Positions 833 through 62,400 of a stretch of DNA of 64,000 nt are shown here, one piece after another; the stretch's first letter is position 1; every line of letters begins with the position of its first letter. The DNA is taken from the NCBI RefSeq assembly GCF_014876185.1, contig NZ_JADALJ010000001.1, forward strand, positions 3,763,501 to 3,827,500. The letters are read 5' to 3'. Position numbers and translations under genes: made by a program. This stretch comes from Rufibacter sp. LB8. Lineage in GTDB: Bacteria; Bacteroidota; Bacteroidia; Cytophagales; Hymenobacteraceae. Below the pieces are notes generated by a model. The model made no database searches. It saw only the letters and a list, made by a program, of their open reading frames with translations, and had not been told where the DNA came from.

Positions 833-870
833 CGTTTTAGGGCTCATTTCTGAAATTGAGCCCTAAAACG
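833..870. repeat. Family A palindrome 1
   Basis: Arms CGTTTTAGGGCTCA / TGAGCCCTAAAACG. This is the AGGGC variant with the matching CCCTA on the other arm. It lies 23 bases before the glycosyltransferase start. Confidence 0.85.
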
Positions 871-893
871 GAAATCCCCGTTCAAAAGCATCT

Positions 894-2093
894 ATGCACA
901 TCGCGCTGTTTCACCAGTACCACCATAACCCTGACTGTGCGGCCACGTGCCGGCATTACACGTTTATGGCAGAACTGGTAAAGCGCCACCAGATCACACT
1001 CATCACCTCCAACGCCTGGGAAAGCAAACGCCTCACGCAGTTGTATGATTGGGTGCCGCCCGGCGTGGAACTGGTTTCGGTGCCCGTGCCGTACCACAAC
1101 AAAATGGGGATTGGGCAGCGCGTGAAAGCCTTCGGGGAGTTTGCCGTGAAAGCCTTACTGGCCGGCCGTAAAATTGCTAAGCCCGATGTGATCTGGGGCG
1201 TCTCTACACCGTTGACCACGGCCTGGGCCGCCGCCCGTGTAGCCAAGTACCACCAGGTGCCCTGGGTGTTTGAGGTGCAGGATTTGTGGCCATCGTTCCC
1301 CATCCAAATGGGCGCGGTCCCTTTCAAGCCGGCGCAGAAACTTCTCTATCATCTGGAGAAGAGCCTGTACCAAAGCGCGGCGCATATCATTCCGTTATCA
1401 ATGGGCATGGAGCAGTACATTTCTAGTCTGGGAATTCCGGCTCAGAAAATGACCACCTTGGTCAACGGCACCGAGGTTCCTGAAAGGCCACTGTCTTTTA
1501 CTGAACGGGAAGCCTTACGGGAAAAGCTGGGCTTGGCCGGAAAACAAGTGGTGCTGTATGCCGGAACCTATGGCCGGGCGAATGATATTCCCATGCTGGT
1601 ACAGGCCGCAGAATTACTACAGAATCATCCGCAGATTCACTTCGTGTTTGCCGGGCAGGGGTTTGACGAGCCTTTGTTGCAAAGCGCGGCGCAGAAACAG
1701 CAGAACATTCTTATGCTTCCGCCGCAGCCGCGCCACCAGATGCTTGAGTTGTTTTCCATGGCCGCGGTCTCCCTGGTTTCCTTTATAGATTTGCCAGTGT
1801 TAGCCGCTAACTCGCCTGGTAAATTGTTTGACAGCCTGGCCGCCGGAACACCCGTAGTGGTCACCAACCCCGGCTGGACCAAAGACTTGGTGGAAACCCA
1901 CCATTGCGGCTGGTACTCACCCGCTGGAAATGCTGAGGCTTTGGCCAATTCCTTATTAATGCGATTACAAAACCAGGCTGAACTAGAAACTATGCGTGAA
2001 AATGCGCACTCTGTGGCTCAGGAGCAATTTGACCGTTTGCAGATGGTGCCCAAGTTGGAGAGGATCTTTACCGAGGCGGTGAGTAGGAAATAA
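894..2093 (+). CDS. Glycosyltransferase family 4 (WbuB-like)
   Basis: A 399-residue GT4 (GT-B fold) glycosyltransferase, probably cytoplasmic and acting in surface polysaccharide synthesis. The N-terminus MHIALFHQYHHNPD matches the acceptor-side Rossmann domain of the WbuB/PimB-like group. The nucleotide-sugar domain starts near residue 215 (VVLYAGTYGRAND) and holds the GT4 EX7E-type segment near 310 (NSPGKLFDSLAAGTPVV), with Asp where the first Glu usually lies. Length is normal for the family. It stands alone, with no polysaccharide cluster alongside, so the sugar donor and acceptor cannot be predicted. Confidence 0.88.
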   Translation: MHIALFHQYHHNPDCAATCRHYTFMAELVKRHQITLITSNAWESKRLTQLYDWVPPGVELVSVPVPYHNKMGIGQRVKAFGEFAVKALLAGRKIAKPDVIWGVSTPLTTAWAAARVAKYHQVPWVFEVQDLWPSFPIQMGAVPFKPAQKLLYHLEKSLYQSAAHIIPLSMGMEQYISSLGIPAQKMTTLVNGTEVPERPLSFTEREALREKLGLAGKQVVLYAGTYGRANDIPMLVQAAELLQNHPQIHFVFAGQGFDEPLLQSAAQKQQNILMLPPQPRHQMLELFSMAAVSLVSFIDLPVLAANSPGKLFDSLAAGTPVVVTNPGWTKDLVETHHCGWYSPAGNAEALANSLLMRLQNQAELETMRENAHSVAQEQFDRLQMVPKLERIFTEAVSRK

Positions 2094-2441
2094 GGTATTC
2101 CTGAAAATAATGTGGCCTTGCAGATAAAGTACGGAAAGGTCGCGACCTGGCCACCACGCATTCCTGATCTTGGCATTCCAGATTCACGCATTGCCATTGA
2201 GGGCGTTCACTTGGTTACTCCAGGGCAAACAGATTGCTTGGGCCACCGTTCAGGACAGGTCGCGACCTGTCCGTACATGTAGCCGTTAGCTGGATCGCGT
2301 CAAAATATGTTGCCCAATAATCTGCAGCGTAACTGTGCTGGCTGTCTTACTCTTTCATCAAACCCTCCAGAATTAGAGAATTGTTTCCTTTTGAGGCAAG
2401 TCAAATAGCCTCTGAGTGGTCATCCAATAAGTTTATATTTC
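2094..2441. other. Gene-free gap with GGTCGCGACC palindromes
   Basis: No credible gene. It holds two copies of a GGTCGCGACC-centred palindrome (2134-2153 and 2253-2272). The convergent gamma-glutamyltransferase gene lies beyond a family A palindrome. Confidence 0.65.
2253..2272. repeat. Perfect 20-base palindrome
   Basis: GGACAGGTCGCGACCTGTCC is self-complementary over all 20 bases. A shorter copy centred on AAGGTCGCGACCTGG lies at 2136-2150. Confidence 0.75.
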
Positions 2442-2481
2442 CTGTTTTCGGGCTCATTTCTGGAAATGAGCCCGAAAACAG
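2442..2481. repeat. Family A palindrome 2
   Basis: Near-perfect arms CTGTTTTCGGGCTCATTTC / GAAATGAGCCCGAAAACAG. It ends 4 bases after the stop of the minus-strand gamma-glutamyltransferase gene. Confidence 0.92.
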
Positions 2482-2485
2482 ATTT

Positions 2486-4369: not shown

Positions 4370-4451
4370 GGATTTTGAAGAATAAGAGGTCTGTAAGCAC
4401 AAAGAAATACCTAAAGCCAGAACCAGCAGGAATTGTTGCCAAAACCCCAAA

Positions 4452-4491
4452 CAAAACCGCCGAACAGTCTCTCTAAGATACTATTCGGCGG
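4452..4491 (-). terminator. Terminator of the SUMF1-like gene
   Basis: Arms CCGCCGAA (4458-4465) and TTCGGCGG (4484-4491). On the minus strand the stem is followed by TTTTGTTT. It lies about 75 bases after the stop at 4567, beyond palindrome 3. Confidence 0.65.
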
Positions 4492-4518
4492 TGCCAAAAC
4501 AAACTGTTCCAGGTTTCC

Positions 4519-4556
4519 TGTTTTAGGCCTCATTTCCAGTAACGAGCCCTAAAACG
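4519..4556. repeat. Family A palindrome 3
   Basis: Core TGTTTTAGGCCTCATTTCC / AACGAGCCCTAAAACG, slightly degenerate. It lies 10 bases after the stop of the minus-strand gene at 4567. Confidence 0.85.
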
Positions 4557-4566
4557 GAAAGCCATC

Positions 4567-5616: not shown

Positions 5617-5662
5617 TTCCTGTTTTCTGGCTCATTTCCAGAAACGGGGCCGAAAACGGGAA
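5617..5662. repeat. Family A palindrome 4
   Basis: Outer arms TTCC...GGAA around TGTTTTCTGGCTCATTTCC / GAAACGGGGCCGAAAACG. It ends exactly one base before the nth stop codon. Confidence 0.82.
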
Positions 5663-6337
5663 TTACAGTTTGTTCTGCGGGTCGTCTGGTTTGTTGGGCC
5701 AGTTCTTCTCAAAGTAGGCGCAGAAATGGGTGAGGGGACAACGTTCGCACTGCGGCGTGCGGGCCAGGCAGATGTAGCGGCCGTGCAAGATCAACCAGTG
5801 GTGGGCTTTGGGCACCAAATCTGTGGGAATGTGCTGGAGCAGTTCGCGTTCTACTTCCAGCGGGGTTCTGGCTTTGGCGCTCACCAACCCCAATCGTTTT
5901 GACACCCGGAATACGTGCGTGTCCACGGCCATGGCGGGCATGTTGAAAATAACCGAGGCAATTACGTTTGCGGTCTTCCGGCCTACGCCGGGTAACAGCT
6001 GCAGTTCCTCAATGGTGCTGGGCACCTCGCCCCCAAACCGTTCTACCAGCATTCTGGCCAAACCAGCCAGATGTTTGGCTTTGTTGTTGGGGTACGAAAT
6101 GCTTTTGATGTAAGGGAAAATGTGTTCGGCGGTAGCCGTGGCTAGTATTTCTGGAGAAGGGAAGGCATCAAACAGCGGCACCGTGACCAGGTTCACTCGT
6201 TTGTCGGTGCACTGGGCGCTGAGCACCACGGCAATAAGCAGTTCATACGGGTTGCGGTACGCCAACTCAGTCTCCGGTTCTGGGAAGTTCTGGGTGAAGT
6301 AGGAGATTAAGTGCCGGTACCGTTCCTGTTTGCGCAT
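5663..6337 (-). CDS. nth: Endonuclease III (DNA glycosylase/AP lyase)
   Basis: A 224-residue base-excision repair enzyme for oxidised pyrimidines. The helix-hairpin-helix LPGVGRKTANVIASV carries the catalytic Lys of GVGRKTA, and DTHVFRVSKRLGL carries the catalytic Asp. The [4Fe-4S] loop at the C-terminus is intact: Cys-X6-Cys-X2-Cys-X5-Cys (CLARTPQCERCPLTHFC). Length and motif order are canonical. It is apparently monocistronic, with the ECF sigma gene set downstream on the same strand separated by a strong terminator. Confidence 0.96.
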   Translation of the reverse strand: MRKQERYRHLISYFTQNFPEPETELAYRNPYELLIAVVLSAQCTDKRVNLVTVPLFDAFPSPEILATATAEHIFPYIKSISYPNNKAKHLAGLARMLVERFGGEVPSTIEELQLLPGVGRKTANVIASVIFNMPAMAVDTHVFRVSKRLGLVSAKARTPLEVERELLQHIPTDLVPKAHHWLILHGRYICLARTPQCERCPLTHFCAYFEKNWPNKPDDPQNKL

Positions 6338-7393: not shown

Positions 7394-7424
7394 CGGTTGC
7401 TGTAACTACAGAAAAATATTTTTC

Positions 7425-7460
7425 GTTTTGGGGCTCATTTCCAGAAATGAGCCCCAAAAC
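7425..7460. repeat. Family A palindrome 5
   Basis: Perfect arms GTTTTGGGGCTCATTTC / GAAATGAGCCCCAAAAC. The GGGGC variant is matched by GCCCC on the other arm. Confidence 0.93.
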
Positions 7461-7573
7461 AGCCTGTTCGGTAGTTGGGTGACTAGCAGAATTTCAATCT
7501 GTTAGGCGCCATGGGCCGCTGTTTATCTGGGGCATACGTCTACCAATGTCTTTTGCCGCAATAAGTACGCCAA

Positions 7574-9026: not shown

Positions 9027-9066
9027 CCGTTTTAGGGCTCATTTCTGGAAATGGAGCCAAAAACGG
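9027..9066. repeat. Family A palindrome 6
   Basis: CCGTTTTAGGGCTCATTTC / GAAATGGAGCCAAAAACGG. It ends one base before the stop of the truncated haemoglobin gene. Confidence 0.85.
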
Positions 9067-9539: not shown

Positions 9540-9579
9540 CACTTTGGGCCGCATTTACAGAATGGAGCCCAAAAACGGA
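9540..9579. repeat. Family A palindrome 7 (degenerate)
   Basis: CACTTTGGGCCGCATTT / AATGGAGCCCAAAAACGG. The arms are partly decayed. It lies just beyond the terminator at 9589. Confidence 0.6.
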
Positions 9580-11720: not shown

Positions 11721-11760
11721 GCGTTTTCGGGCTCATTTCCAGAAATGAAGCCGAAAACGC
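11721..11760. repeat. Family A palindrome 8
   Basis: GCGTTTTCGGGCTCATTTC / GAAATGAAGCCGAAAACGC, 46 bases after the MFS stop. Confidence 0.92.
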
Positions 11761-11917: not shown

Positions 11918-12156
11918 GCCAATCTGGAGATTGGCTGTCCGGAAGTGCGTAGAGCGCTGCGCTAACTCTACGCACAACGAAGGTCTCGAGAACCGCACCG
12001 GCGGAAGTAGATATAGGCTGTTTTCAGGCTCATTTCCAGAAATGAAGCCAAAAACAGCATTTTATCCAGTAGACAAGTTTTTGCCTCGTTTAGGTTGTGC
12101 GTAGAGTTAGCGCCAGCGCTCTACGCACTTCCGGGAAAGCCAATCTCCAGATTGGC
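11918..12156. repeat. Long inverted repeat enclosing a family A palindrome
   Basis: Left arm 11918-11978 and right arm 12094-12156 are near-identical reverse complements (about 61 bases). Each begins with GCCAATCTGGAGATTGGC, itself a palindrome, and continues with GGAAGTGCGTAGAGCGCT. The 115-base centre contains palindrome 9. Confidence 0.85.
12017..12058. repeat. Family A palindrome 9
   Basis: GCTGTTTTCAGGCTCATTTC / GAAATGAAGCCAAAAACAGC, at the centre of the long inverted repeat. Confidence 0.9.
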
Positions 12157-13351: not shown

Positions 13352-16300
13352 TTAGTTTCCTCCTAGGTATTGGAGTTGGTACACGTTTAACTGGTAGTCT
13401 AGCAGCAGTTGCTGGTAGTTTTGCTGGATGCGCAAGAGCTGGTCGGCGGCTTGCAGGTAACTCAGGTAGCTGACCTCGCCGGCGCGGTAGGCTTTGTCAG
13501 CCTGGGTGAGGGCCAGGCGGGCGTTGGTCAGCACCTGGCTTTGGTAAAACTGCAGGCTCTGGCGCAGTCGCTGGTTTTCCTGTTGAGCAGCGGCCCAAAG
13601 GCTTTTCAGCTGGTGCTGTTGGTTCAGGAAGTTAGCTTCGGCGGCTTGTTTCTCCAGTCCGGCGGCTTTGATTCTGCCTTTCTGCGCCCCCCGGAACAAA
13701 GGGATAGCCACGCCCGCCTCCACGCCCTGGAACCGCGTGCTCCGGTCTGGCGCGTTCTCTATTTTGCCGTTGATGTCATACGTACCCACTAAACTCTGAT
13801 TGAAGTAGCCCAGCGTGATGTCCGGAGCCAGTTTGGTTTTCTCCACCTGCTGCTCGCGGTCGGCTACGGCAATTTGCTGTTGGTAGACCTGGAGCAGCGG
13901 GTGATTTTCCGGAGCCGAAGGCTGGGCAAGCAAGCTGTCCACGCGCAACGGCGCAGGCACAATGACCAAGGGCTGCGGTGCCTGAATCAGGGCGTTCAAA
14001 TTGGTTTGGGCGATGTTCAACGCCGACAGGTTTTGCCGCAGCCGTTCCGAGAGTTCCAGCCGTTGGGTGGTGGCGGTGGTTTTCTCCAGCAAGCCGGTCT
14101 CGCCGGTCCTGAACCGAACATCGGCGGCACGCTCCAGCACTTTGAAAATACTGTCCTGCTCCTGCAACAACCGCTCACTGGCGTGTAGAAACGCCAGCCG
14201 CGCGTAGGCCTGCTTCACCTGCCATAGTAACTTATGCTGCGCCAAAGAAAACTCCTGCTGACTCAGGTTTTTCTGCTCTAGCAACAGTTTCCGCTGCGTG
14301 CTCCAGGTGGTGGGGAACGGAATGGTCTGGCTCACCCCAAAGCGGTCATCTGTCACTGGGCTGTTGAGTTGGCCTTGGCTGTAAGTGAAATCCGTTTTGG
14401 GTAAATCAACAGCAGTTTTTTGGAGCGCCTTCCGAACGTCCACCTGCAAGCCGGCGCTTTTCAGTTGCTGGTTGTGTTGCTTGGCCAGTTCCAAAACCTG
14501 TTCCAGCGTAAGCGGCTGCGCCGATGTTTGCGCCTGACCAGCCAAAGGCAGCAGCAAAAAGAACGGCAGCAGCCAACCTAATGCGGCTTTTTTGAAGGTA
14601 CCCACGCCTCTTTCCGAGTAGTAATAGATAATGGGCAGCACCACCAGCGTGAGCAGCGTGGCCGAAATCAGGCCGCCAATCACCACCGTGGCCAGAGGTT
14701 TCTGCACCTCGGCCCCAGCCGAATTAGACAAGGCCATGGGCAGGAACCCGAGCGAAGCCACCGTGGCCGTCATGATGATGGGGCGGAGTCGCGCCGCCGT
14801 GCCTTCCCGAATGATTTGTTCCAGATTGGTCATGCCGCCGGTTTTTAGTTGGTTGAAATAGCCTATCATCACAATGCCGTTGAGCACCGCCACCCCAAAC
14901 AGTGCAATGAAACCCACGCCCGCCGAAATACTGAACGGCATGTCGCGCAAGAGCAAGGCAAAAACGCCGCCAATGGCCGAGAGCGGGATGGCCGTGAAAA
15001 TGAGGATGGATTGTTTGATGGATTTGAAGGCGAAGAACAGCAACACGAAAATCAGCGCCAGGGCCAGCGGCACCGCCACGCCCAGCCGTTCCTTGGCCTC
15101 CAGCAGGTTCTGGAACTCGCCGCCGTAAGTGATGGTGTAGCCGGGCGGCAGCTTTATCTGGCCTTTAATCTTCTGCTGGATTTCGTCTACAATGCTCTGC
15201 ACATCGCGGTTGCGCACGTTAAAGCCAATGGTGATGCGGCGGCGGGTGCCATCGCGCTGAATCTGGTTGGGGCCGTCTTTCATCTCCACCTTGGCCACGT
15301 GCTGCAACGGAATCTGCAGGCCGGCGGCGTTGCTCACGTACAGCTTCTGCACATCTGAAATGTCTTGCCGGTTCTGTTGGTTCAGCCGCACCACCAGGTC
15401 AAAGCGCCGTTCGCCTTCGTACACCTGCCCCGCCGATAAGCCCGCGAATGCCGCCGTGACGGTGCGGTTTACGTCTTGCACGGTTAGGCCGTAGCGGGCC
15501 ATCTGGGCCCGGTCATAGGCCACCACCACCTGCGGCAGGCCGCTCATTTCTTCAATGTACAAGTCCTGCGCGCCGGAGATGGGCTCTATCAGCTTGCCTA
15601 CTTTGTTGGCGTATTTGGCCAGCTGGTCCACGTCTTCGCCGTAGATTTTGAGCACCACGTCTTGCCGCGCCCCGGTCATTAATTCATTAAACCGCATTTG
15701 AATGGGTTGCTGCACGCCAAACGTGGCCATGGGCAGGTTCTGGTGCAACACTTCTGACATTTGGTTGGCCAGGTCAATGCGGTTGTCGGCGCTGGTCCAG
15801 TCTGCCTGTTCTTTGAGCACCACAATCATATCGCCCAGTTCCACGGGATTGGGCTCGGTGGGTACTTCGGCGGAGCCGATTTTAGTGACCACTTTCTCCA
15901 CCTCCGGGAATTTCTCTTTGAGCAGCTTGGAGGCTTTCTGCACCACGGCAATGGTCTCGCTCAGGGAACTGCCGGTAAGCACGCGGGTTTCAATGGCAAA
16001 ATCGCCTTCGGTGAGGGACGGAATAAACTCGCCGCCCATGCGGGTGAACAAAATCAGACTGATGGCAAACAAGCCCACCGCCAATGCCAACACCAATACC
16101 TTGGCCTTTAGCGCAAAATTCAGAAGCGGCTGGTACGCCCGGTTAATAGCGTTCATGATTTTGTCTGAGATGTTCTCTTTGTGCACCGTGTTGCGGCTCA
16201 ATACCAGCGAGGCCATCATGGGCACGTAGGTCAAGGACAACAAAAAAGCGCCCAGAATGGCGAAGGAAACGGTTTGGGCCATGGGCTTGAACATCTTGCC

Positions 16301-17719
16301 TTCAATGCCCACCAGCGCCAGAATGGGCAGGTACACAATCAGGATAATGATTTGCCCGAACGCAGCGAAGCCCATCATCTTGCCCGCCGAGTTCTGAACT
16401 TCGTCGTCCATCTGCTGGCGGCTGAGCCTTTTGATGCCCGCCTCGGCGTAGTTGCTGATTTGGATGCGGTGAATGACAGCCTCCACAATAATCACGGCCC
16501 CGTCCACAATCAACCCGAAGTCCAGCGCCCCCAGGCTCATCAGGTTCCCAGACACACCGAACACGTTCATCAGAGAAATAGCGAACAGCATGGCCAGCGG
16601 AATCACCGACGCCACCAAAAGTCCCGCCCGCCAATTGCCCAGCAGCAGCACCAGCACGAAGACCACAATCAACGCGCCTTCAGCGAGGTTTTTCTCCACG
16701 GTACTAATGGCGCGGTCCACCAATTTGGAGCGGTCCAGGAACGGTTCCAGCACCACGCCCTGGGGCAGGGTTTTCCTGATTTCGGCAATCTTGTTTTTCA
16801 CGCGGGTGATGACCTCCGAGGAATTTTCGCCTTTGAGCATCATGACAATGCCGCCGGCCACCTCGCCGTGTTCGTTCACCATGGCGCCGTAGCGGATGGC
16901 CGAGCCCTCGCGCACCTCGGCCACGTCTCTTACCAACACCGGCGTGCCATTCTGGGTAGTTTTAATGACAATTTGCCCGATGTCTTCCTGGGTTTTTACC
17001 AGGCCTTCGGTCCGGATGAAGTAGGCGTTGGGCGCTTTCTCAATGTAGGCGCCGCCCGCGTTGCCGTTGTTCTGCTCCAGCGCGGTAAACACGTCAGAAA
17101 TGGTGAGGTCGAAGCTGCGGAGCCGCTCGGGTTGCAGCGCGACCTCATACTGCTTCAGCTTGCCCCCGAAACTACTGACTTCGGCCACGCCGGGCGTGCC
17201 CAGCAGTTGCCGCCGCACAATCCAGTCCTGAATGGTGCGCAGCTCGGTGGCGTCATATTTGGCCTCGAAGCCGGGGGCGGGATGGAGTTCGTACTGGTAA
17301 ATCTCGCCCAGACCAGAGGAAACCGGGGCCAGCGTGGGCGTGCCCATGCCGTCGGGAATCTGTTCTTCGGCCTCTTTCAGTTTCTCAGTAATTTGCTGGC
17401 GGGCCCAGTAAATGTCGCGGTCCTCGTCAAACACCACCGTCACCAAAGACAGCCCGAAGCGCGAGAACGACCTTATTTCCGTAATGCCTGGCACGCTGGC
17501 CACGGCCAATTCCACGGGGAACGAGATGAACCGCTCCACGTCCTGCGCGCCCAGCGCCGGCGACACCGTGATGACCTGCACTTGGTTGTTGGTAATATCG
17601 GGCACGGCGTCAATGGGCAGGCGCTGCACATTGTACACGCCCCACGCCACCAGCGCCACCGTCAGCAGCCCCACCACCAGCTTGTTTTGGATGGAAAAGG
17701 CAATTATTTTCTGTAACAT
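13352..17719 (-). CDS. CzcA-type metal efflux pump fused to TolC-like channel
   Basis: 1455 residues. I start at ATG 17719 (MLQKIIAFSIQNKLVV), the conserved CzcA N-terminus. Residues 1-1040 form a complete heavy-metal RND pump. The TM4 signature SLGALDFGLIVDGAVIIVEA (about 395-415) keeps the Asp, Asp and Glu of the divalent CzcA/CnrA class (HME1), not the CusA monovalent pattern. Near residue 1045 a second signal-like segment (WLLPFFLLLPLAGQAQ) leads into a CzcC/TolC outer-membrane efflux domain (1060-1455) with paired OEP repeats. Such fusions are known in Bacteroidota. The natural order is pump-channel then adaptor; it exports Co, Zn, Cd or Ni by inference. Confidence 0.93.
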   Translation of the reverse strand: MLQKIIAFSIQNKLVVGLLTVALVAWGVYNVQRLPIDAVPDITNNQVQVITVSPALGAQDVERFISFPVELAVASVPGITEIRSFSRFGLSLVTVVFDEDRDIYWARQQITEKLKEAEEQIPDGMGTPTLAPVSSGLGEIYQYELHPAPGFEAKYDATELRTIQDWIVRRQLLGTPGVAEVSSFGGKLKQYEVALQPERLRSFDLTISDVFTALEQNNGNAGGAYIEKAPNAYFIRTEGLVKTQEDIGQIVIKTTQNGTPVLVRDVAEVREGSAIRYGAMVNEHGEVAGGIVMMLKGENSSEVITRVKNKIAEIRKTLPQGVVLEPFLDRSKLVDRAISTVEKNLAEGALIVVFVLVLLLGNWRAGLLVASVIPLAMLFAISLMNVFGVSGNLMSLGALDFGLIVDGAVIIVEAVIHRIQISNYAEAGIKRLSRQQMDDEVQNSAGKMMGFAAFGQIIILIVYLPILALVGIEGKMFKPMAQTVSFAILGAFLLSLTYVPMMASLVLSRNTVHKENISDKIMNAINRAYQPLLNFALKAKVLVLALAVGLFAISLILFTRMGGEFIPSLTEGDFAIETRVLTGSSLSETIAVVQKASKLLKEKFPEVEKVVTKIGSAEVPTEPNPVELGDMIVVLKEQADWTSADNRIDLANQMSEVLHQNLPMATFGVQQPIQMRFNELMTGARQDVVLKIYGEDVDQLAKYANKVGKLIEPISGAQDLYIEEMSGLPQVVVAYDRAQMARYGLTVQDVNRTVTAAFAGLSAGQVYEGERRFDLVVRLNQQNRQDISDVQKLYVSNAAGLQIPLQHVAKVEMKDGPNQIQRDGTRRRITIGFNVRNRDVQSIVDEIQQKIKGQIKLPPGYTITYGGEFQNLLEAKERLGVAVPLALALIFVLLFFAFKSIKQSILIFTAIPLSAIGGVFALLLRDMPFSISAGVGFIALFGVAVLNGIVMIGYFNQLKTGGMTNLEQIIREGTAARLRPIIMTATVASLGFLPMALSNSAGAEVQKPLATVVIGGLISATLLTLVVLPIIYYYSERGVGTFKKAALGWLLPFFLLLPLAGQAQTSAQPLTLEQVLELAKQHNQQLKSAGLQVDVRKALQKTAVDLPKTDFTYSQGQLNSPVTDDRFGVSQTIPFPTTWSTQRKLLLEQKNLSQQEFSLAQHKLLWQVKQAYARLAFLHASERLLQEQDSIFKVLERAADVRFRTGETGLLEKTTATTQRLELSERLRQNLSALNIAQTNLNALIQAPQPLVIVPAPLRVDSLLAQPSAPENHPLLQVYQQQIAVADREQQVEKTKLAPDITLGYFNQSLVGTYDINGKIENAPDRSTRFQGVEAGVAIPLFRGAQKGRIKAAGLEKQAAEANFLNQQHQLKSLWAAAQQENQRLRQSLQFYQSQVLTNARLALTQADKAYRAGEVSYLSYLQAADQLLRIQQNYQQLLLDYQLNVYQLQYLGGN

Positions 17720-17834
17720 GTTTTTGAAAAGGAATGAAGCCAACCGTGGCGCGCGGGGCGCGATGGCGGCGAATTAGCTAGAAACTTCAGCAGGATTTCA
17801 GCTTAAGGTTTCCGGGAATAGGGAATTGTTGGCG

Positions 17835-17880: not shown

Positions 17881-17918
17881 CGTTTTCGGGCTCATTTCTG
17901 GAAATGAAGCCGAAAACG
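17881..17918. repeat. Family A palindrome 10
   Basis: CGTTTTCGGGCTCATTTC / GAAATGAAGCCGAAAACG, between the pump gene and its upstream small gene. Confidence 0.92.
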
Positions 17919-18639: not shown

Positions 18640-18677
18640 CGTTTTCGGCCTCGTTTCTGAAAATGAAGCTGAAAACG
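18640..18677. repeat. Family A palindrome 11
   Basis: CGTTTTCGGCCTCGTTTC / AAAATGAAGCTGAAAACG. It is the left edge of a repeat nest extending to 19123. Confidence 0.85.
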
Positions 18678-19050: not shown

Positions 19051-19088
19051 TGTTTTCGGCCTCGTTTTCAGAAACGAGGCCAAAAACA
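19051..19088. repeat. Family A palindrome 12
   Basis: TGTTTTCGGCCTCGTTTTC / GAAACGAGGCCAAAAACA, adjacent to the bTHX terminator. Confidence 0.9.
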
Positions 19089-19296: not shown

Positions 19297-19408
19297 GACG
19301 GTACTTATTTTAATGAATGTGGTTGAACAATAGGTGACAAGTTGTCTTTTATGAGAAACTTGGCGTGAAAGTTACGAACTCTACGCAGTAAGCGCAAATT
19401 TAACCTTT

Positions 19409-19444
19409 GTTTTCGGCTCTATTTTGAGAAACGAGGCCAAAAAC
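19409..19444. repeat. Family A palindrome 13 (degenerate)
   Basis: GTTTTCGGCTCTATTTTG / AGAAACGAGGCCAAAAAC, in the divergent gap between bTHX and uvrA. Confidence 0.7.
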
Positions 19445-19493
19445 GCATTGGCAAACAGGCTTCTAAATGCCGTTGCGTTTGGTTACCTTTGCG

Positions 19494-22398: not shown

Positions 22399-22436
22399 CG
22401 TTTTCGGCCTCGTTTCCAGAAATGAAGCCGAAAACG
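22399..22436. repeat. Family A palindrome 14
   Basis: CGTTTTCGGCCTCGTTTC / GAAATGAAGCCGAAAACG, starting 7 bases after the uvrA stop and before the true terminator. Confidence 0.93.
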
Positions 22437-22448
22437 GAAATTCTTGGT

Positions 22449-22482
22449 AGACCTGTGAGGTTTTCATAACCTCACAGGTCTT
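22449..22482 (+). terminator. uvrA terminator
   Basis: Arms AGACCTGTGAGG / CCTCACAGGTCT followed by TTTTTG. The stem sequence itself is a common Bacteroidota hairpin. Confidence 0.88.
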
Positions 22483-23764: not shown

Positions 23765-23802
23765 CGTTTTCGGCTTCATTTTCAGAAATGAGCCCGAAAA
23801 CG
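23765..23802. repeat. Family A palindrome 15
   Basis: CGTTTTCGGCTTCATTTTC / GAAATGAGCCCGAAAACG, 34 bases before the tpiA start. Confidence 0.92.
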
Positions 23803-23835: not shown

Positions 23836-24600
23836 ATGAGAAAGAACATTGTTGCCGGCAACTGGAAAATGAACAAAACCGACCAAGACGCGCAGGCGCT
23901 GGTGAGCGAGATTGACAACATGGTCAGAGACGAAGTCACCACAGACAACGTGGACGTGATTGTGACGCCGCCGTTTCCGTTTCTGAGCGCAGTGGGCAAG
24001 TTGATTCAGGGCAACCCGCGTTTGCATTTGGCGGCGCAGGACGTGAGCGCGCATGAAAGCGGCGCATACACCGGCGAAGTGTCGGCGGCAATGCTCAAAT
24101 CTGTAGGTGTGGAATATGTGTTGGTGGGCCACTCAGAGCGCCGCCAGTACCATAATGAAAGTGCAGATTTGCTTTTGAAGAAAATGAAAGCGGCGCTGGG
24201 CCAAGGCATCAAACCCATCTTCTGCTGCGGCGAACCGCTGGAAGTGCGGGAAGCCGAAGACCATTTCAAATACGTGAACGAACAGTTGAGAGACACGGTG
24301 GCGCATCTGAGCAACGAGGAGTTCGACAAGATTGTGATTGCCTATGAGCCTATCTGGGCGATTGGCACCGGCAGAACGGCCAGCAGCCAGCAAGCCCAGG
24401 AAATGCACGCCAGCATACGCGAAGAACTTTCCAGACTGTTTGACGCCGAGGCAGCCTTCAACAAAACCATTCTGTACGGCGGCAGCGCCAACCCCGGTAA
24501 CGCCCAAGAACTGTTCGCGCAGCCAGACGTAGACGGCGGTTTGATTGGCGGGGCATCGTTGAAATCCAGAGACTTCACAGACATCATCAAGGGCTTTTAA
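23836..24600 (+). CDS. tpiA: Triosephosphate isomerase
   Basis: 254 residues, interconverting dihydroxyacetone phosphate and glyceraldehyde 3-phosphate in the cytoplasm. I chose ATG 23836 because MRKNIVAGNWKMNK is the conserved N-terminus; an upstream in-frame ATG lies inside a repeat. Catalytic Lys in GNWKMN (residue 13), His in VGHSERR (about 97), Glu in AYEPIWAIGTG (about 170), and the phosphate loop GGSANPGNA (about 215) are all present. Monocistronic between palindromes. Confidence 0.97.
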   Translation: MRKNIVAGNWKMNKTDQDAQALVSEIDNMVRDEVTTDNVDVIVTPPFPFLSAVGKLIQGNPRLHLAAQDVSAHESGAYTGEVSAAMLKSVGVEYVLVGHSERRQYHNESADLLLKKMKAALGQGIKPIFCCGEPLEVREAEDHFKYVNEQLRDTVAHLSNEEFDKIVIAYEPIWAIGTGRTASSQQAQEMHASIREELSRLFDAEAAFNKTILYGGSANPGNAQELFAQPDVDGGLIGGASLKSRDFTDIIKGF

Positions 24601-24650
24601 GAAAAGTCCTGAGTTCTGAGTCGGGAGTTCTGAGTTAAAGCAATTTGTCA

Positions 24651-24696
24651 AAAGCGTTTTCGGGCTCATCTCTAGAAATGAGCCCGAAAACGCTTT
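24651..24696. repeat. Family A palindrome 16
   Basis: Extended arms AAAGCGTTTTCGGGCTCAT / ATGAGCCCGAAAACGCTTT, 50 bases after tpiA. Confidence 0.93.
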
Positions 24697-24727
24697 GTTG
24701 TAATGTTACCCTGAAGCTTATTAAAAA

Positions 24728-24765
24728 GCTCCCCTCTCCGTGGGAGAGGGGCTGGGGGTGAGGTG
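24728..24765. repeat. CCCCTCTCC/GGGAGAGGGG hairpin
   Basis: CTCCCCTCTCCGTGGGAGAGGGG then CTGGGGGTGAGG. The same unit occurs at 55281-55317. Confidence 0.7.
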
Positions 24766-24768
24766 CCC

Positions 24769-24805
24769 GTTTTTGCCTTCGTTTTCAAAATTGAGCCCGA
24801 AAACG
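24769..24805. repeat. Family A palindrome 17 (degenerate)
   Basis: CGTTTTTGCCTTCGTTTTC / AAAATTGAGCCCGAAAACG, before prmA. Confidence 0.75.
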
Positions 24806-24879
24806 CACGTTCTATCCATTCCCATCGTTTCCTTTAAATAGGCGGCCCTGAAAAGCTGCCACCAACCCAAGACATCACC

Positions 24880-31075: not shown

Positions 31076-31125
31076 AATTCCCGTTTGGGGGCTCATTTCC
31101 AGAAATGAGCCCCCAAACGGGAATT
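31076..31125. repeat. Family A palindrome 18, longest copy
   Basis: 50 bases: 24-base perfect arms from AATTCCCGTTTGGGGGCTCA to its exact complement, around a 2-base centre. It begins 22 bases after the stop of the giant gene. Confidence 0.95.
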
Positions 31126-31416
31126 TTCTTTACCTCATAACAGAATCGTAGCGTGGTGGCCCTGGCCCGACGGGTCTCCATGAAGCCTAAACAGTTAAAA
31201 TTTCAGCAAATTTTAAGGCTGGTCAATGGCTGCAAATAAAAGTTTCCGCCTACTTGAACCAGTTTTGCCGCGCAGCACTATCTTTTTCCGCGGAACGGCA
31301 CTACGTTTTCTGATAAGATAGAAATTTGCGTTTTCGGCTCAGTTTCCAGAAATGAGCCCCAAAACGGGATTCTCTTTTAACTGAAGTTTAGGCTGGGGCA
31401 CCTGAGGGCTTTTTTC
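31126..31416. other. Gene-free gap before plsY
   Basis: No gene. It holds palindrome 19 (31329-31366). The rest shows no structure I recognise. Confidence 0.5.
31329..31366. repeat. Family A palindrome 19
   Basis: CGTTTTCGGCTCAGTTTC / GAAATGAGCCCCAAAACG. Arms mismatched at CGG/CCC. Confidence 0.87.
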
Positions 31417-33556: not shown

Positions 33557-33594
33557 CGTTTTCGGCCTCGTTTTCAGAAATGAGCCCGAAAACG
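33557..33594. repeat. Family A palindrome 20
   Basis: CGTTTTCGGCCTCGTTTTC / GAAATGAGCCCGAAAACG, 5 bases after the dipeptidase stop. Confidence 0.93.
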
Positions 33595-33751: not shown

Positions 33752-33789
33752 CGTTTTTGGCTTCGTTTCCAGAAATGAGGCCGAAAACA
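33752..33789. repeat. Family A palindrome 21
   Basis: CGTTTTTGGCTTCGTTTC / GAAATGAGGCCGAAAACAG. Its right AAAACAG also forms part of the next terminator stem. Confidence 0.92.
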
Positions 33790-33827
33790 GGAAAGCCCGA
33801 GGCAACTGCTTCGGGCTTTCCTGTTTT
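33782..33827 (-). terminator. Terminator sharing bases with palindrome 21
   Basis: AAAACAGGAAAGCCCGA / TCGGGCTTTCCTGTTTT, 17-base arms and A/T flanks on both sides. It ends the first barrel gene (stop 33844). Its left arm begins inside palindrome 21. Confidence 0.88.
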
Positions 33828-36315: not shown

Positions 36316-36353
36316 CGTTTTCGGGCTCGTTTTCAGAAATGAGCCCGAAAACA
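36316..36353. repeat. Family A palindrome 22
   Basis: CGTTTTCGGGCTCGTTTTC / GAAATGAGCCCGAAAACAG, between barrel genes 4 and 3. Confidence 0.93.
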
Positions 36354-39008: not shown

Positions 39009-39046
39009 CGTTTTTGGCTCCGTTTCCAGAAATGAGCCCGAAAACG
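39009..39046. repeat. Family A palindrome 23
   Basis: CGTTTTTGGCTCCGTTTC / GAAATGAGCCCGAAAACG, 25 bases after the stop of the gene at 39072. Confidence 0.92.
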
Positions 39047-40845: not shown

Positions 40846-40883
40846 CGTTTTCGGCTTCATTTCCAGAAATGAGCCCGAAAACG
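40846..40883. repeat. Family A palindrome 24
   Basis: CGTTTTCGGCTTCATTTC / GAAATGAGCCCGAAAACG, beyond the ABC gene's terminator. Confidence 0.93.
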
Positions 40884-42846: not shown

Positions 42847-42884
42847 CGTTTTGAGGCTCATTTCTGGAAATGAGGGCAAAAACG
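42847..42884. repeat. Family A palindrome 25
   Basis: CGTTTTGAGGCTCATTTC / GAAATGAGGGCAAAAACG, degenerate in the distal arm. Confidence 0.8.
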
Positions 42885-45486: not shown

Positions 45487-45524
45487 TGTTTTCGGCTTCA
45501 TTTCCAGTTTAGAGCCCGAAAACG
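45487..45524. repeat. Family A palindrome 26
   Basis: TGTTTTCGGCTTCATTTCC / TTTAGAGCCCGAAAACG, in a divergent gap. Confidence 0.85.
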
Positions 45525-47810: not shown

Positions 47811-47854
47811 AAACAGAAATGCCACAGCGAAGAACGTTGTGGCATTTCTGTTTT
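47811..47854 (+). terminator. Terminator sharing bases with palindrome 27
   Basis: AAAACAGAAATGCCACA...TGTGGCATTTCTGTTTT. The downstream TTTT is the left arm of palindrome 27. Confidence 0.88.
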
Positions 47855-47887
47855 TGGCCTCGTTTTCAGAATTGAGCCCGATAACGG
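47849..47887. repeat. Family A palindrome 27
   Basis: TGTTTTTGGCCTCGTTTTC / GAATTGAGCCCGATAACGG, slightly decayed, overlapping the terminator tail. Confidence 0.82.
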
Positions 47888-49766: not shown

Positions 49767-49804
49767 CGTTTTCGGGCTCGTTTTGGGAAACGGAGGCAAA
49801 AACG
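49767..49804. repeat. Family A palindrome 28 (degenerate)
   Basis: CGTTTTCGGGCTCGTTTTG / GAAACGGAGGCAAAAACG, in a divergent gap. Confidence 0.7.
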
Positions 49805-50500: not shown

Positions 50501-50538
50501 CAGTTTGGCGTCCATTTCAGAAATAGAGCCTAAAAACG
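50501..50538. repeat. Family A palindrome 29 (degenerate)
   Basis: CAGTTTGGCGTCCATTTC / GAAATAGAGCCTAAAAACG; weak but at the expected site, 36 bases before the dihydroorotase ATG. Confidence 0.6.
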
Positions 50539-52994: not shown

Positions 52995-53033
52995 TGTTTT
53001 AGGCTCTGTTTCCAAAATAGAAGGCTAAAACAG
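52995..53033. repeat. Family A palindrome 30 (degenerate)
   Basis: TGTTTTAGGCTCTGTTTCC / AAAATAGAAGGCTAAAACA, arms partly decayed, adjoining the tRNA terminator T tract. Confidence 0.7.
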
Positions 53034-54030: not shown

Positions 54031-54070
54031 GCGTTTTCGGGCTCAGTTTCAGAAATGAGGCCAAAAACAG
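54031..54070. repeat. Family A palindrome 31
   Basis: GCGTTTTCGGGCTCAGTTTC / GAAATGAGGCCAAAAACAG, starting on the base after the stop codon. Its AAAACAG is part of the next terminator. Confidence 0.93.
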
Positions 54071-54154: not shown

Positions 54155-54192
54155 CGTTTTCGGCCTCTGTTTCAGAAATGGGGCCTAAAACG
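54155..54192. repeat. Family A palindrome 32
   Basis: CGTTTTCGGCCTCTGTTTC / GAAATGGGGCCTAAAACG, 53 bases before the ATG of the next gene. Confidence 0.87.
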
Positions 54193-55231: not shown

Positions 55232-55271
55232 GCGTTTTCGGGCTCATTTCCAGAAACGAAGCCAAAAACGC
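55232..55271. repeat. Family A palindrome 33
   Basis: GCGTTTTCGGGCTCATTTCC / GAAACGAAGCCAAAAACGC. Confidence 0.9.
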
Positions 55272-56494: not shown

Positions 56495-56532
56495 CGTTTT
56501 CGGGCTCATTTCCAGAAATGAGCCCGAAAACG
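56495..56532. repeat. Family A palindrome 34
   Basis: CGTTTTCGGGCTCATTTC / GAAATGAGCCCGAAAACG, perfect consensus copy, one base before the M61 peptidase stop. Confidence 0.95.
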
Positions 56533-59092: not shown

Positions 59093-59119
59093 GCATCTTT
59101 CTATCTGGGTATGGATTTC

Positions 59120-59157
59120 CGTTTTAGGGCTCATTTCTGGAAATGGAGCCAAAAACG
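59120..59157. repeat. Family A palindrome 35
   Basis: CGTTTTAGGGCTCATTTC / GAAATGGAGCCAAAAACG, 27 bases after the PycTM-like stop. Confidence 0.9.
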
Positions 59158-59179
59158 GGAAAGTGTCGCTTTAAAGAAC

Positions 59180-59339
59180 CACGCATTCCGTCCCCCTGTG
59201 AAGGGGTAGGGGGATGATTCCTCGTGCAGAAAAATACATCCCGAGAATCAAATTTTCACTTGTTGCATTTCTTTTGCCGATACTTCTTCATCGGCCTTGA
59301 TCATCCCCCTACCCCCTTCAACGCGGGACGAAATGCGTG
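59180..59339. repeat. CGCATTCCG inverted pair
   Basis: ACGCATTCCGTCCCCCTGTG (left, 59180-59220) and ATCATCCCCCTACCCCCTTC with AATGCGTG (right, 59298-59339) are reverse complements, the same family as 18700/18947. Confidence 0.75.
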
Positions 59340-59385
59340 AATCTGCTTGTATTATCTAGACTTATAAGGGCTGCTATGTAAGTAC

Positions 59386-59423
59386 CGTTTTCGGCTTCAT
59401 TTCCAAAAACGAGGCCAAAAACG
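59386..59423. repeat. Family A palindrome 36
   Basis: CGTTTTCGGCTTCATTTCC / AAAACGAGGCCAAAAACG. Confidence 0.88.
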
Positions 59424-59507
59424 GAAGAGTAGTGGCCTGTGCCTCAAAGCTGTACTTGCAGGCGGAAGGGGTAACATGCAAATAGTCAATTAAAATATGG
59501 AACTTGA

Positions 59508-59539
59508 TTTGATTTATCAGATTTGATTTCCTAATTTTG
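59508..59539 (+). promoter_or_regulatory. Promoter of rpmH-rnpA
   Basis: TTTG at 59508-59511, 20-base spacer, TAATTTTG at 59532-59539. An excellent Bacteroidota match, 28 bases before rpmH. Confidence 0.8.
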
Positions 59540-59567
59540 CATCCCTTAATATAATGTTTAGTGTAAG

Positions 59568-59726
59568 ATGAAAAGAACATTCCAACCTTCGCAACGCAAA
59601 AGAAGAAATAAGCATGGTTTCCGCTCACGCATGGAAACTGCCAATGGTAGAAGAGTATTGGCTAGCAGAAGAGCTAAAGGCCGTCATAAACTGACCGTTT
59701 CTGACGAAAGAAGACACAAAGCCTAA
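59568..59726 (+). CDS. rpmH: 50S ribosomal protein L34
   Basis: 52 residues: [20 protein letters not shown], then [20 protein letters not shown] and KLTVSDE at the end, the L34 signature. Basic, binds 23S rRNA in the large subunit. Short for Gram-negative L34 by a few residues only. The start follows a strong promoter. rnpA follows 35 bases later, the usual order. Confidence 0.97.
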
Positions 59727-59761
59727 TTTTTCTGAGTAGCTCGCTGCAAGGCCTCGTCCCT

Positions 59762-60172
59762 ATGGACACCTTCACTGAACATTCTGCAGAAGAGCCACAG
59801 AATTCTTATAGATTCAAGAAGGAAGAACGTTTACGGAGCAAGAAGCTGATTGAACAGCTGTTCCGTGAAGGTTCTTCTTTCAATTCCTATCCGTTGCGGT
59901 TTGTGGCGCTCCAATTGCCACAGCCCACCACGCCGCCCGTGCAGGTGCTGGTTTCCGTGTCTAAGCGGTACTACAAAAAAGCCGTGGACCGCAACCGCCT
60001 CAAGCGCCAGATGCGCGAGGCCTTCCGGCTGGCCAAACCCACTATTGCTCAATTAAATACTGGCCAAAACGGCTGGGTGATTGGCATTCTCTACGTGGGC
60101 AAAGAAAAAAATCCTTTCAATATCATCAGTAAAAAACTAAATTCAGGACTGGAGCGTTTGTTTACTAAATAG
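59762..60172 (+). CDS. rnpA: Ribonuclease P protein component
   Basis: 136 residues. Binds P RNA and helps cleave the 5' leader of pre-tRNAs. Contains the RNR motif as KAVDRNRLKRQMREAFR (about 80-97), preceded by VQVLVSVSKRYYKK. Basic as expected. Operon with rpmH; no yidD or yidC follows, an S41 peptidase does, an arrangement seen in Cytophagales. Confidence 0.95.
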   Translation: MDTFTEHSAEEPQNSYRFKKEERLRSKKLIEQLFREGSSFNSYPLRFVALQLPQPTTPPVQVLVSVSKRYYKKAVDRNRLKRQMREAFRLAKPTIAQLNTGQNGWVIGILYVGKEKNPFNIISKKLNSGLERLFTK

Positions 60173-60213
60173 TTACGCCTTCACTTCCCGTTTTTTCTTT
60201 TTTACCTGTTGCT

Positions 60214-61866
60214 ATGCTGAAGAAATCTATTGCTGGCCTTGTCTTGGTAGGTACTACCTGGGGCCTTTTCTCCTTCTCTTCTGGCTCTGAGCGCTACTTT
60301 GATATCGCCAAAAACCTGGACATTTTCGCCACGCTCTTCAAAGAGGTGAATACCTATTACGTAGACGATGTGGCGCCCACCAAACTGGTGCGCACCGGCA
60401 TTGACGCCATGCTCAAGAGCCTGGACCCCTACACTAACTACATTCCCGAAGACGATATTGAGGATTTTAGGACCATGACCACCGGCAACTACGGCGGCAT
60501 TGGCGCCCTGGTGGGCAAGCGCGACGGAAGACATATTGTGTCTCTGCCACATGAAGGCTCCCCTGCCCAGAAAGCGGGTCTGTTGATTGGCGACGAGATT
60601 GTGAAGATTGACGGCGTGGAGCTAGCCAGGAAAACTGACAACGAAGTCAGCAAGCTGCTCAAAGGCCAGGCCGGCACGCTGGTGAAGCTGGAGATAAAAC
60701 GCTTTGGGGCAGATAAACCGCTGGTGCTGGACGTGACGCGCGGCAACATTCACATCAACAACGTGCCGTATTATGGTATGGTCACGCCGGAAATCGGTTA
60801 CTTGCAGCTGTCGGGTTTTACCGTAGATGCGGGCGCTGAGGTGCGTAAGGCCGTGGTGAAACTGAAAGAGCTGGGCGCGAAGAAAGTGATTCTGGACCTG
60901 CGCGACAACCCGGGTGGTTTGCTGAACGAAGCCGTGAACATCTCCAACCTGTTCTTGCCCCGCGGCAAAGACATTGTGAGCACCAAAAGCAAAGTCGCTG
61001 ACTGGAACAAGATGTACAAAGCCTTAGACGAACCACTAGACATGCAAATGCCCATGGCCGTTCTGACCAGCACCAACAGCGCCTCGGCGTCTGAGATTGT
61101 GGCGGGTGCGCTGCAAGACTATGACCGCGCCGTGCTGATTGGAGAAAGAACATTCGGGAAAGGTTTGGTGCAGATGACACGTCCTTTGTCCTATAATTCG
61201 CAGTTGAAAGTGACCACCGCCAAATACTACATTCCCAGCGGGCGCTGCATTCAAGCCATTGACTACGCCCACCGCAACGCCGATGGGTCTCTGAATAAAA
61301 TTCCGGATTCTTTGCGCGTGGCGTTTAAAACGGCCAATGGCAGAGTGGTGTATGACGGCGGTGGCATTAGCCCAGACCTGGAAGTGAAAGAGAAACCGGT
61401 GCCAGACATTATTCGGAAACTGATGACCAAAAACTACATCTTTGACTACGCCACTCGTTTCAGGGCCAGCAATGCCAGCATTGGCGACGCCAAATCGTTT
61501 AAAGTGTCAGAGGCCGAGTATCAGAAATTTGTTTCGTTCCTGAACGGGAAAGATATTTCGTATTCCACAGATGTAGAGAAAGCCCTGGACAACATGATTA
61601 AGAAGGCCAAGGAAGACAAGCACTATGAAGAAGTGAAAACTGACATTGAGCAAATCAGAAAGAAAGTGGCTGCTAACAAGGGCAATGACTTGATGCGCTT
61701 CAAAGCTGAAATCACGGAGTTGCTGGAGCAGGAGATTGTTTCTAGGTATTACTTGCAGAAAGGGTTGGTAGAGGCCACGTTCAATGATGACCAAAATATT
61801 CTGGCCGCCGTGGAAGTGTTGAATAACCCCACCAAATACCAGGGCCTGCTTTCGGCTAAGAAATAA
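60214..61866 (+). CDS. S41 C-terminal processing peptidase
   Basis: 550 residues. N-terminal membrane or signal segment (IAGLVLVGTTWGLFSF). PDZ domain (GGIGALVGKRDG, about 90-180), then the S41 core: LDLRDNPGGLLNEAVNISNLF (about 230-250) and the catalytic Ser in STNSASASEIVAGAL (about 287) with Lys in GERTFGKGLVQ (about 312). C-terminal helical part to 550. Prc/CtpA class; periplasmic. No specific substrate. Confidence 0.95.
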   Translation: MLKKSIAGLVLVGTTWGLFSFSSGSERYFDIAKNLDIFATLFKEVNTYYVDDVAPTKLVRTGIDAMLKSLDPYTNYIPEDDIEDFRTMTTGNYGGIGALVGKRDGRHIVSLPHEGSPAQKAGLLIGDEIVKIDGVELARKTDNEVSKLLKGQAGTLVKLEIKRFGADKPLVLDVTRGNIHINNVPYYGMVTPEIGYLQLSGFTVDAGAEVRKAVVKLKELGAKKVILDLRDNPGGLLNEAVNISNLFLPRGKDIVSTKSKVADWNKMYKALDEPLDMQMPMAVLTSTNSASASEIVAGALQDYDRAVLIGERTFGKGLVQMTRPLSYNSQLKVTTAKYYIPSGRCIQAIDYAHRNADGSLNKIPDSLRVAFKTANGRVVYDGGGISPDLEVKEKPVPDIIRKLMTKNYIFDYATRFRASNASIGDAKSFKVSEAEYQKFVSFLNGKDISYSTDVEKALDNMIKKAKEDKHYEEVKTDIEQIRKKVAANKGNDLMRFKAEITELLEQEIVSRYYLQKGLVEATFNDDQNILAAVEVLNNPTKYQGLLSAKK

Positions 61867-61914
61867 CACACTCTACATATTTAATATAGTTGTGCGGATT
61901 TAATAATTATATAA

Positions 61915-62271
61915 GTGTTCAATATCAAAGATAAGCTAACAGTTGAGGATGTTTATCTTTGGATGGACGGAGGAACGGTAACTCTGGTTATGCAAGACCA
62001 AAGTTCTCAGACGTGCGAAATTGAGTTTGTTCAGAAGGTTTCTTTAAAAAGATATGACCACCTTCCCAGACCGGGTAGCCTTCTGATAAACAGGAAAGAA
62101 GTTGAGGTAAGGTCAGAACTTGAAAAGGAAATACTGATTGCCGTTCAAGGAGCTGAATGGGGTAAAGGAATTAAAGAAGAGGATAAAAATAGCTTTAAAA
62201 GGATTATAGAAGATTGTATTGATTTTGTCAAATCGGAGCGCTATAGAGATTTAGCCCAAACCCATATTTAA
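61915..62271 (+). CDS. AT-rich hypothetical protein
   Basis: 118 residues from a GTG. Strand-rich N-terminus (VYLWMDGGTVTLVMQDQSSQ), charged middle, helical end (EEDKNSFKRIIEDCIDFVKS). No family recognised. The AT content is well above its neighbours, suggesting an acquired gene. It follows the S41 gene by 48 bases; no clear promoter. Confidence 0.55.
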   Translation: MFNIKDKLTVEDVYLWMDGGTVTLVMQDQSSQTCEIEFVQKVSLKRYDHLPRPGSLLINRKEVEVRSELEKEILIAVQGAEWGKGIKEEDKNSFKRIIEDCIDFVKSERYRDLAQTHI

Positions 62272-62355
62272 AATAACTCCGCACACCAACATGTAAATGC
62301 CAACTTCATCAGACGACCTTGTCACAGGTTACATAAGTACAATAAGAGTGCAGAT

Positions 62356-62400
62356 TCCTGTTTTTGGTCTCGTTTCCAGAAATGAGCCCGAAAACAGGAA
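62356..62400. repeat. Family A palindrome 37
   Basis: TTCCTGTTTTTGGTCTCGTTTC / GAAATGAGCCCGAAAACAGGAA with extended outer arms. Confidence 0.92.

Follow-up and report, generated by a model that had tools for sequence, protein, structure and literature searches.

A high-copy palindrome behind Rufibacter genes, possibly a boundary site read by a protein

Introduction

What purpose does a palindrome serve that recurs behind gene after gene on one bacterial chromosome? The question is raised by a 64-kb stretch of the 4.59-Mb contig (chromosome) of Rufibacter sp. LB8, referred to here as the window, for which an earlier note had claimed 37 intergenic copies of such a palindrome. All 37 were located, none displaced by more than 6 bases. 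The genome that holds the window (4.75 Mb, two contigs) is labelled G000; G001, G004, G006, G007, G009, G010, G011, and G013 are other Rufibacter genomes, and L-numbers denote sampled loci. For one window protein, the nearest three relatives bearing a name belong to R. sediminis, R. hautae, and Rufibacter sp. XAAS-G3-1. Transposases or uptake bias account for the best known palindromes that bacteria carry in high copy. The Rufibacter palindrome looks more like an unrecognised gene-end marker than a jumping element. We tentatively read its copies as old, genus-wide DNA recognition sites for a sequence-specific protein that would mark the ends of transcription units. Since a symmetric site acts on transcription from either side, the mark would most likely be a two-way boundary.

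Results

Copy number and anatomy of the palindrome

The half-site TTTTCGGGCTCATTTC matches the window 56 times at up to three mismatches, versus 1.0 expected. A weight matrix trained on the 37 window copies scores 37 sites there at 24 bits or above, and in 464 kb of reversed sequence nothing reaches even 8 bits. Across the G000 genome, the half-site at up to one mismatch gives 853 + 832 matches, and none when read backwards. Separate samples totaling 1.504 Mb contain 688 copies at 20 bits or more, which places ~2,100 on the chromosome, one per 2.2 kb, in line with the earlier note's suggestion that a genome could carry thousands. The copies are spread evenly, with 7.7 to 10.5 per 20 kb across ten chromosomal bins. 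A covariance model, R1, served only for finding loci and relatives, and its per-genome counts are not used.

The full palindrome spans ~50 bp (AATTTCCGTTTTCGGSYTCRTTTYCAGAAAYGARSCCGAAAACGGAAATT), with conservation mainly in a central 38-bp core (CGTTTTCGGSYTCRTTTYCAGAAAYGARSCCGAAAACG) and a weak extension to AATT at either end; the G000 dialect of the core is CTCATTTC. At the centre, 539 of 634 copies have CA or TG, and just 39 are self-complementary there. A spacer of exactly 2 bp lies between the halves in 625 of 629 half-pairs from G000, 68 of 73 from G007, and 70 of 71 from G013. The outer boxes alone tell the same story, as GTTTT-N26-AAAAC occurs 606 times, against 26 for N25 and eight for N27. 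GTTTT boxes spaced by 14, 33, or 34 lie mostly inside or adjoining known copies, as do half of the 26 cases spaced by 25. Isolated half-sites are scarce (24, with six in reversed sequence) compared with 1,049 halves inside copies.

The earlier note knew of no name for the family. A scan of the window against Rfam returned a tRNA as its only match above the gathering score, viral contigs held no exact match to the degenerate 38-mer, and searches of an open-access library, covering titles and abstract starts, brought up no description of it. Subfamilies arising by copying were considered and dropped as evidence of amplification; the linkage between distant positions seems, from examples, due to copies with a one-base shift in one half. 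The orientation of the centre (CA/TG) shows a weak association with GC-skew sign on the G000 chromosome (158:124 versus 127:152, p 0.014), mostly through one bin.

Placement relative to genes

Placement was analyzed for 567 copies in 1.224 Mb of chromosome, 552 of which could be placed against genes called with a simple coding-score caller. Among gaps of at least 60 bp, a copy is present in 112 of 121 convergent gaps (93%), 279 of 472 tandem gaps (59%), and 45 of 131 divergent gaps (34%), the divergent class being possibly inflated by short genes that the caller missed. Convergent and divergent occupancy differ with a Fisher p of 3e-23, and this strong dependence on gap type is far from random placement. 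Copies avoid the 60 bp before starts and favor stop-proximal positions: 314 of 631 distances on the stop side do not exceed 60 bp, versus 64 of 435 on the start side, which bears out the proximity to stop codons proposed from the window. The commonest single distance to a stop is 4 bp (22 of 631). At this distance (TAA+TTTC+CG), it is as if the AATT edge of the palindrome often provides the stop codon.

The earlier note had also stated that no copy lies in a called gene. This stands for the coding-score genes of the window, and fails for mechanical open reading frames (ORFs), some of which are overlapped (for instance 24133..24669 by the copy at 24655-24692). Intragenic copies are few at the chromosome scale too: 19 of the 552 placed copies touch a gene, and four of these 19 copies are high-scoring.

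Shared positions and species dialects

A first search of relatives with the G000 dialect suggested a family confined to G000, which proved an artefact of that spelling. Half-site matches in the other dialect number 2,074 in G013, 1,640 in G007, 1,197 in G001, 665 in G006, and 536 in G010, down to 40 in G009, with 107 in G000. In an order-wide half-site search of 291 genomes, which would miss a differently spelled family, only the four Rufibacter drawn exceed six matches, a level that the backward control reaches too. In the sister species G007 and G013, 200 kb contain 76 and 75 copies, a density similar to that of G000, with the consensus CGTTTTTGGCCTGTTTTCnnGAAAACAGGCCAAAAACG and the core CTGTTTTC where G000 has CTCATTTC. 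Among 1,212 G000 halves selected by outer boxes, the inner dinucleotide is CA in 840 and CG in 223 (together 1,063), and GT in 16; among 214 halves from G007 and G013, it is GT in 100, AT in 39, CT in 24, GA in 20, and CA in none. Matrix bias was rejected as the source of this difference, as the census repeated with outer boxes only agreed with the first.

The gap at window positions 24601-24879 holds an element in ten species, mostly palindromic, whose left core is TGTTTT in nine and CTCATCTC in G000. In a small protein tree, G000 stands beside G001 (support 0.975), nested among species of the other dialect, so that by parsimony the change falls on the G000 branch.

Species largely agree on where copies sit. 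Orthologous gaps of G000 were compared 61 times, 34 times with G007 and 27 times with G013, some gaps entering both sets. Both genomes have a copy in 27 cases and neither has one in 26; five cases have copies in G000 only, and three in the sister only. Tandem gaps alone give 17, 16, four, and two (p 2e-5). In 23 of the 27 doubly occupied gaps, a pair of copies falls at the aligned place, in an alignment that favors pairing masked copies. The distance to the flanking gene agrees within 10 bp in 13 of the 27, versus 5.9 at random (maximum 12 in 500 draws), and within 5 bp in eight, versus 3.3 (maximum 9). Aligned copies are ~85% identical and their flanks ~71% (15 copies). Sharing declines in more distant or low-copy species; between G000 and G009, four gaps are occupied in both and six in G000 only.

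Between G007 and G013, a single close pair at 82% identity, 24 orthologous gaps comprise 16 occupied in both, eight in neither, and none in one genome only. Empty sites hidden by broken local alignments, outside which 20 of 35 G007 copies fell, were rejected as an explanation, because the gap-based comparison agreed. As occupied gaps are largely shared and none is discordant between G007 and G013, most copies are old and stay put, their dialect having shifted together on the G000 branch. The compared gaps hold 17 copies in G007 and 18 in G013, the extra copy lying within a larger length difference. In this gap (G007 L177-L180, G013 L181-L183), G013 has two copies with extra DNA between them and G007 has one, a pattern expected if recombination between two copies had removed the intervening DNA, or if G013 had gained it by insertion.

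A protein site or an RNA hairpin

Pairing between the two halves was assessed in 605 G000 copies picked by outer boxes only and compared with shuffled halves. Pairing falls below the shuffles at positions 10, 11, and 13 (z -4.2, -3.0, and -2.7) and is near chance at 8, 9, 14, and 17; the deficit at position 10 is also present with copies oriented by their centre. A score cut-off was rejected as the source of the negative correlation between halves, which persisted in copies selected by outer boxes only. At several inner positions, the sequence of each half thus seems to matter more than its pairing. Together with the rigid spacing, this is our main argument, an indirect one, for a reader acting at the DNA level: a fixed 2-bp separation counts for a protein site, as a hairpin loop need not be so rigid. 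The reader would probably be a homodimer, with one subunit on each 18-19 bp half. Bound behind stop codons and ordinary terminators, it would most likely serve as a protein roadblock or a back-up terminator, with the need greatest between convergent genes. The copies would be inherited in place and track the shifting preference of their reader, giving rise to species dialects.

Several observations speak against this protein-site reading. Pairing exceeds the shuffles at position 6 (z 8.5), position 0 (6.9), and positions -5 to -1 (2.8 to 6.0), and also at inner positions 7 (3.2), 12 (8.6), 15 (2.5), and 16 (3.1), with z reaching up to 9. Copies show no avoidance of perfect inner stems (76 of 605, versus 65 in shuffles with a maximum of 82). 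Core flanks complementary over at least 5 bp exceed the shuffles in G000 (56 of 566, 18 expected) and in G007 and G013 (10 of 76 and 8 of 75, with fewer than one expected). The paired outer and some inner positions, the unavoided stems, and the complementary flanks suit a hairpin more than a dimer site. When copies are read in the sense orientation, G-U mismatches outnumber A-C mismatches (300 versus 240, p 0.011), a faint hint of RNA that weakens when position 17 is left out (235 versus 202, p 0.13). tRNA units give no clear signal, with a copy within 102 bp downstream in five of 14 and within 103 bp upstream in two of 14. Copies do not substitute for ordinary terminators, which are found at 57% of 222 convergent ends with a copy and 60% of 20 without; these similar rates led us to reject the idea that copies stand in for terminators. 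No reader protein has been identified, and none was searched for.

Across 205 distinct copies from G007 and G013, pairing at inner positions 7 to 17 stays close to expectation, and that at outer positions 1, 2, 5, and 6 lies above it. About one in ten copies in these two genomes has site-specific complementary flanks of at least 5 bp (for example, AAGGAGCC..GGCTCCTT), so some copies tip a longer stem.

The strongest rival is a hairpin that works as RNA, transcribed into 3' ends in both directions, where it would protect mRNA from exonucleases or aid termination; we regard this as possible, with less conviction than the protein site. Covariation of the outer arms and some flanks favors it, as does the retention of the palindrome despite sequence change in most of the ten species sharing the gap at 24601-24879. 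The 4-bp commonest stop distance fits it as well, and the first copy lies 0-14 bp past the stop at 94 of 276 gene ends without a separate terminator, versus 42 of 182 with one. The inner pairs 10, 11, and 13, the rigid spacing, and a G-U bias that becomes unclear without position 17 count against the hairpin. So does the direction of the T runs: TTTT and AAAA are part of the stem, the downstream flank is only mildly T-rich, and the consensus lacks the GC-rich hairpin followed by a U-tract outside the stem that characterizes an intrinsic terminator. With its T runs pointing inward (TTTT...AAAA), the palindrome alone is not an intrinsic terminator. It resembles bidirectional intrinsic terminators in being a palindrome behind stop codons and between convergent genes, and differs from them in its inward T runs, in having one sequence over thousands of sites, and in coexisting with ordinary terminators.

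How copies and terminators are arranged bears on both readings. At 458 gene ends, a copy follows within 300 bp: a terminator precedes the copy at 109 of them and follows it at 73, a hairpin overlaps it at 58, and none is seen at 218. The preponderance of terminator-first over copy-first ends counts for the boundary reading, and copies lying more often behind a terminator than before it count against the hairpin. At tandem ends, terminators are commoner with a copy (37% of 281) than without (21% of 191; p 4e-4). In 34 of the 109 terminator-first cases, the stem ends within ~4 bp of the copy, whose TTTT would then be the U-tract, a point in favor of an RNA-level role; the hairpins in these abutting cases count as terminators partly owing to that TTTT.

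Transposase genes and the second replicon

A second rival, which we consider unlikely, is a mobile repeat of the kind known as repetitive extragenic palindromes (REPs), spread by a RAYT transposase (TnpA_REP), with bursts of amplification leaving every lineage with a variant of its own. Like REPs and the bacterial interspersed mosaic elements (BIMEs) they form, the Rufibacter palindrome is short, extragenic, very high in copy number, biased toward 3' ends, often right at the stop, and variable between related genomes; one account describes REP families that differ between strains and RAYT-less strains that can retain REPs for a while (PMC3686654), and another describes REP termini that often supply a TAG stop to flanking ORFs (PMC3733652). 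Some turnover is also seen, in the G000 comparisons with copies in G000 only (five) or in the sister only (three) and in the copy at 33557, which lacks a counterpart in G007 and G013. The palindrome departs from REPs in its rigid 2-bp half spacing and in positions largely common to species, and the precise empty sites or insertion polymorphisms of REP/RAYT elements or miniature inverted-repeat transposable elements (MITEs) are absent across the 24 gaps compared between G007 and G013. Neither GTAG nor CGTC occurs as a foot tetranucleotide in the consensus, whose flanks are AATTTCCG/CGGAAATT on both sides. This tag is not an absolute requirement, as the Bacteroidetes TnpA_REP subclass 2.6 is reported to have atypical flanking structures and no GTAG/CGTC tag (PMC6006769); the Rufibacter palindrome could not be linked to subclass 2.6.

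The earlier note had proposed a search for a RAYT gene. Y1_Tnp genes are present in 15 of 16 Rufibacter genomes; G007, despite its 1,640 half-site matches, has no Y1_Tnp match at E 1e-3. A RAYT transposase therefore cannot be the general cause of the family, and the proposed link did not hold. RAYT is dispensable in G007 today; a transposase lost from G007, perhaps recently, or active in an ancestor would also be compatible with these data. Around G000 Y1_Tnp genes, palindrome density over six loci is about background, with copies 117 and 189 bp to either side of the gene in L001. Different inverted repeats lie beside some of these genes, at L003 407-546 (the same as L004 1240-1379) and L006 1308-2465 (CGGGGATTT..AAATCCCCG; GGACAGGTCGCGACCTGTCC); they are unlike the palindrome family and are possibly the REPs of those Y1_Tnp genes.

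The second replicon, C2 (155 kb; L155, L243-L248, L156), carries four copies at 20 bits, versus ~71 expected at chromosome density, a further point against mobility. A 40-kb part of it, scanned alongside the 1.224 Mb of chromosome, had none. Two of the four copies score clearly better with a G013 matrix (47.9 versus 25.5 and 47.7 versus 41.1) and two about equally, so the replicon may derive from another Rufibacter.

Topology and uptake

Quite improbable, in our judgment, is a topology site, forming a cruciform or loading gyrase or topoisomerase and absorbing supercoils between convergent genes as E. coli BIMEs do. Gyrase, being conserved, would not account for a species dialect on its own, and copies are frequent in tandem gaps too. 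The highest occupancy between convergent genes and the paired outer arms agree with such a role, and REP sequences are reported as sites for gyrase, IHF, and Pol I (PMC6006769).

The DNA uptake sequences (DUS) of Neisseriaceae are shorter than the Rufibacter palindrome. Uptake sequences in inverted pairs, driven by biased transformation, are very improbable here: neisserial DUS (PMC3630211) share with the palindrome many dispersed copies, species dialects, and inverted pairs near terminators, yet are common inside genes and need not pair, while the Rufibacter halves are almost always paired and few copies touch genes.

A possible boundary system

Returning to the protein-read site, dispersed conserved sites read chromosome-wide by one protein are familiar from parS/Noc, matS, and KOPS. 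The Rufibacter palindrome is longer, is placed at gene ends, and has a putative reader. That bound proteins can act as roadblocks to RNA polymerase is an accepted concept (PMC10310618). A bolder version, which we rate as doubtful, has about two thousand protein-read boundary sites, lying at most transcription-unit ends, partitioning Rufibacter chromosomes, blocking or insulating transcription from both sides and drifting as a set into species dialects with their reader, without transposition. If true, bacteria would have an equivalent of the insulator or roadblock-terminator sites of eukaryotes. The ~2,100 copies, largely kept in place while their core changed together, make the co-drift of site and reader testable. 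They could reveal a mechanism of gene-end boundaries in Bacteroidota, and comparison of the dialects gives a way toward the reader protein.

Copies and other features of the window

The 38-bp cores of the window are numbered here from left to right. Copy 1 (833..870) was assigned by coordinate match and weight matrix, and in copy 2 (2443..2480) both halves equal the exact half-site. Copy 3 (4519..4556) is followed by copy 4 (5621..5658), 4 bp past the stop of a minus-strand gene ending at 5663, and by copy 5 (7424..7461), matched in position by copies in the orthologous gaps of G007 and G013. After copy 6 (9028..9065) and the degenerate copy 7 (9540..9577) come copies 8 (11722..11759), 9 (12019..12056), 10 (17881..17918), 11 (18640..18677), 12 (19051..19088), and 13 (19408..19445). 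Copy 14 (22399..22436) starts 7 bp past the stop of a UvrA-like gene and precedes a terminator-like hairpin at 22449-22481; copy 15 occupies 23765..23802.

Copy 16 (24655..24692) corresponds to a palindrome with the other core at the aligned place in nine other Rufibacter genomes, and copy 17 (24768..24805) has a counterpart in G013. Copy 18 (31082..31119) reads TTTGGGGG/CCCCCAAA with its arms paired, and the gap of copy 19 (31329..31366) holds one copy each in G007 and G013. Copy 20 (33557..33594), the one without a counterpart in those genomes, begins 5 bp past a stop. Copy 21 (33752..33789) is common to most aligned relatives and abuts the terminator-like hairpin of a minus-strand gene (33788..33823, minus strand), whose U-tract would be the TTTT of the copy; copy and terminator stand side by side in most aligned species.

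Copies 22 (36316..36353) and 23 (39009..39046) precede copy 24 (40846..40883), with counterparts in G007 and G013. Copies 25 (42847..42884), 26 (45487..45524), 27 (47849..47886), and 28 (49767..49804) follow. Copies 29 (50501..50538) and 30 (52995..53032), the latter 32 bp past a tRNA-His, are degenerate and were excluded from alignment A1. Copy 31 (54032..54069) begins 1 bp past a stop and is succeeded by copies 32 (54155..54192) and 33 (55233..55270). Copy 34 (56495..56532) is 1 bp past the stop of a minus-strand gene, and copies 35 (59120..59157), 36 (59386..59423), and 37 (62359..62396) complete the set.

The hairpin at 22449-22481 belongs to a second repeated palindrome, ACCTGTGAGGTTTTCAAAACCTCACAGGT-like and terminator-like, present in several Rufibacter (also L039 9562 and 11471, and L171 8433). 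Between copies 9 and 10, the minus strand at 13352-17743 holds a single 1463-aa ORF that combines AcrB-type transporter (ACR_tran) and outer-membrane efflux (OEP) domains.

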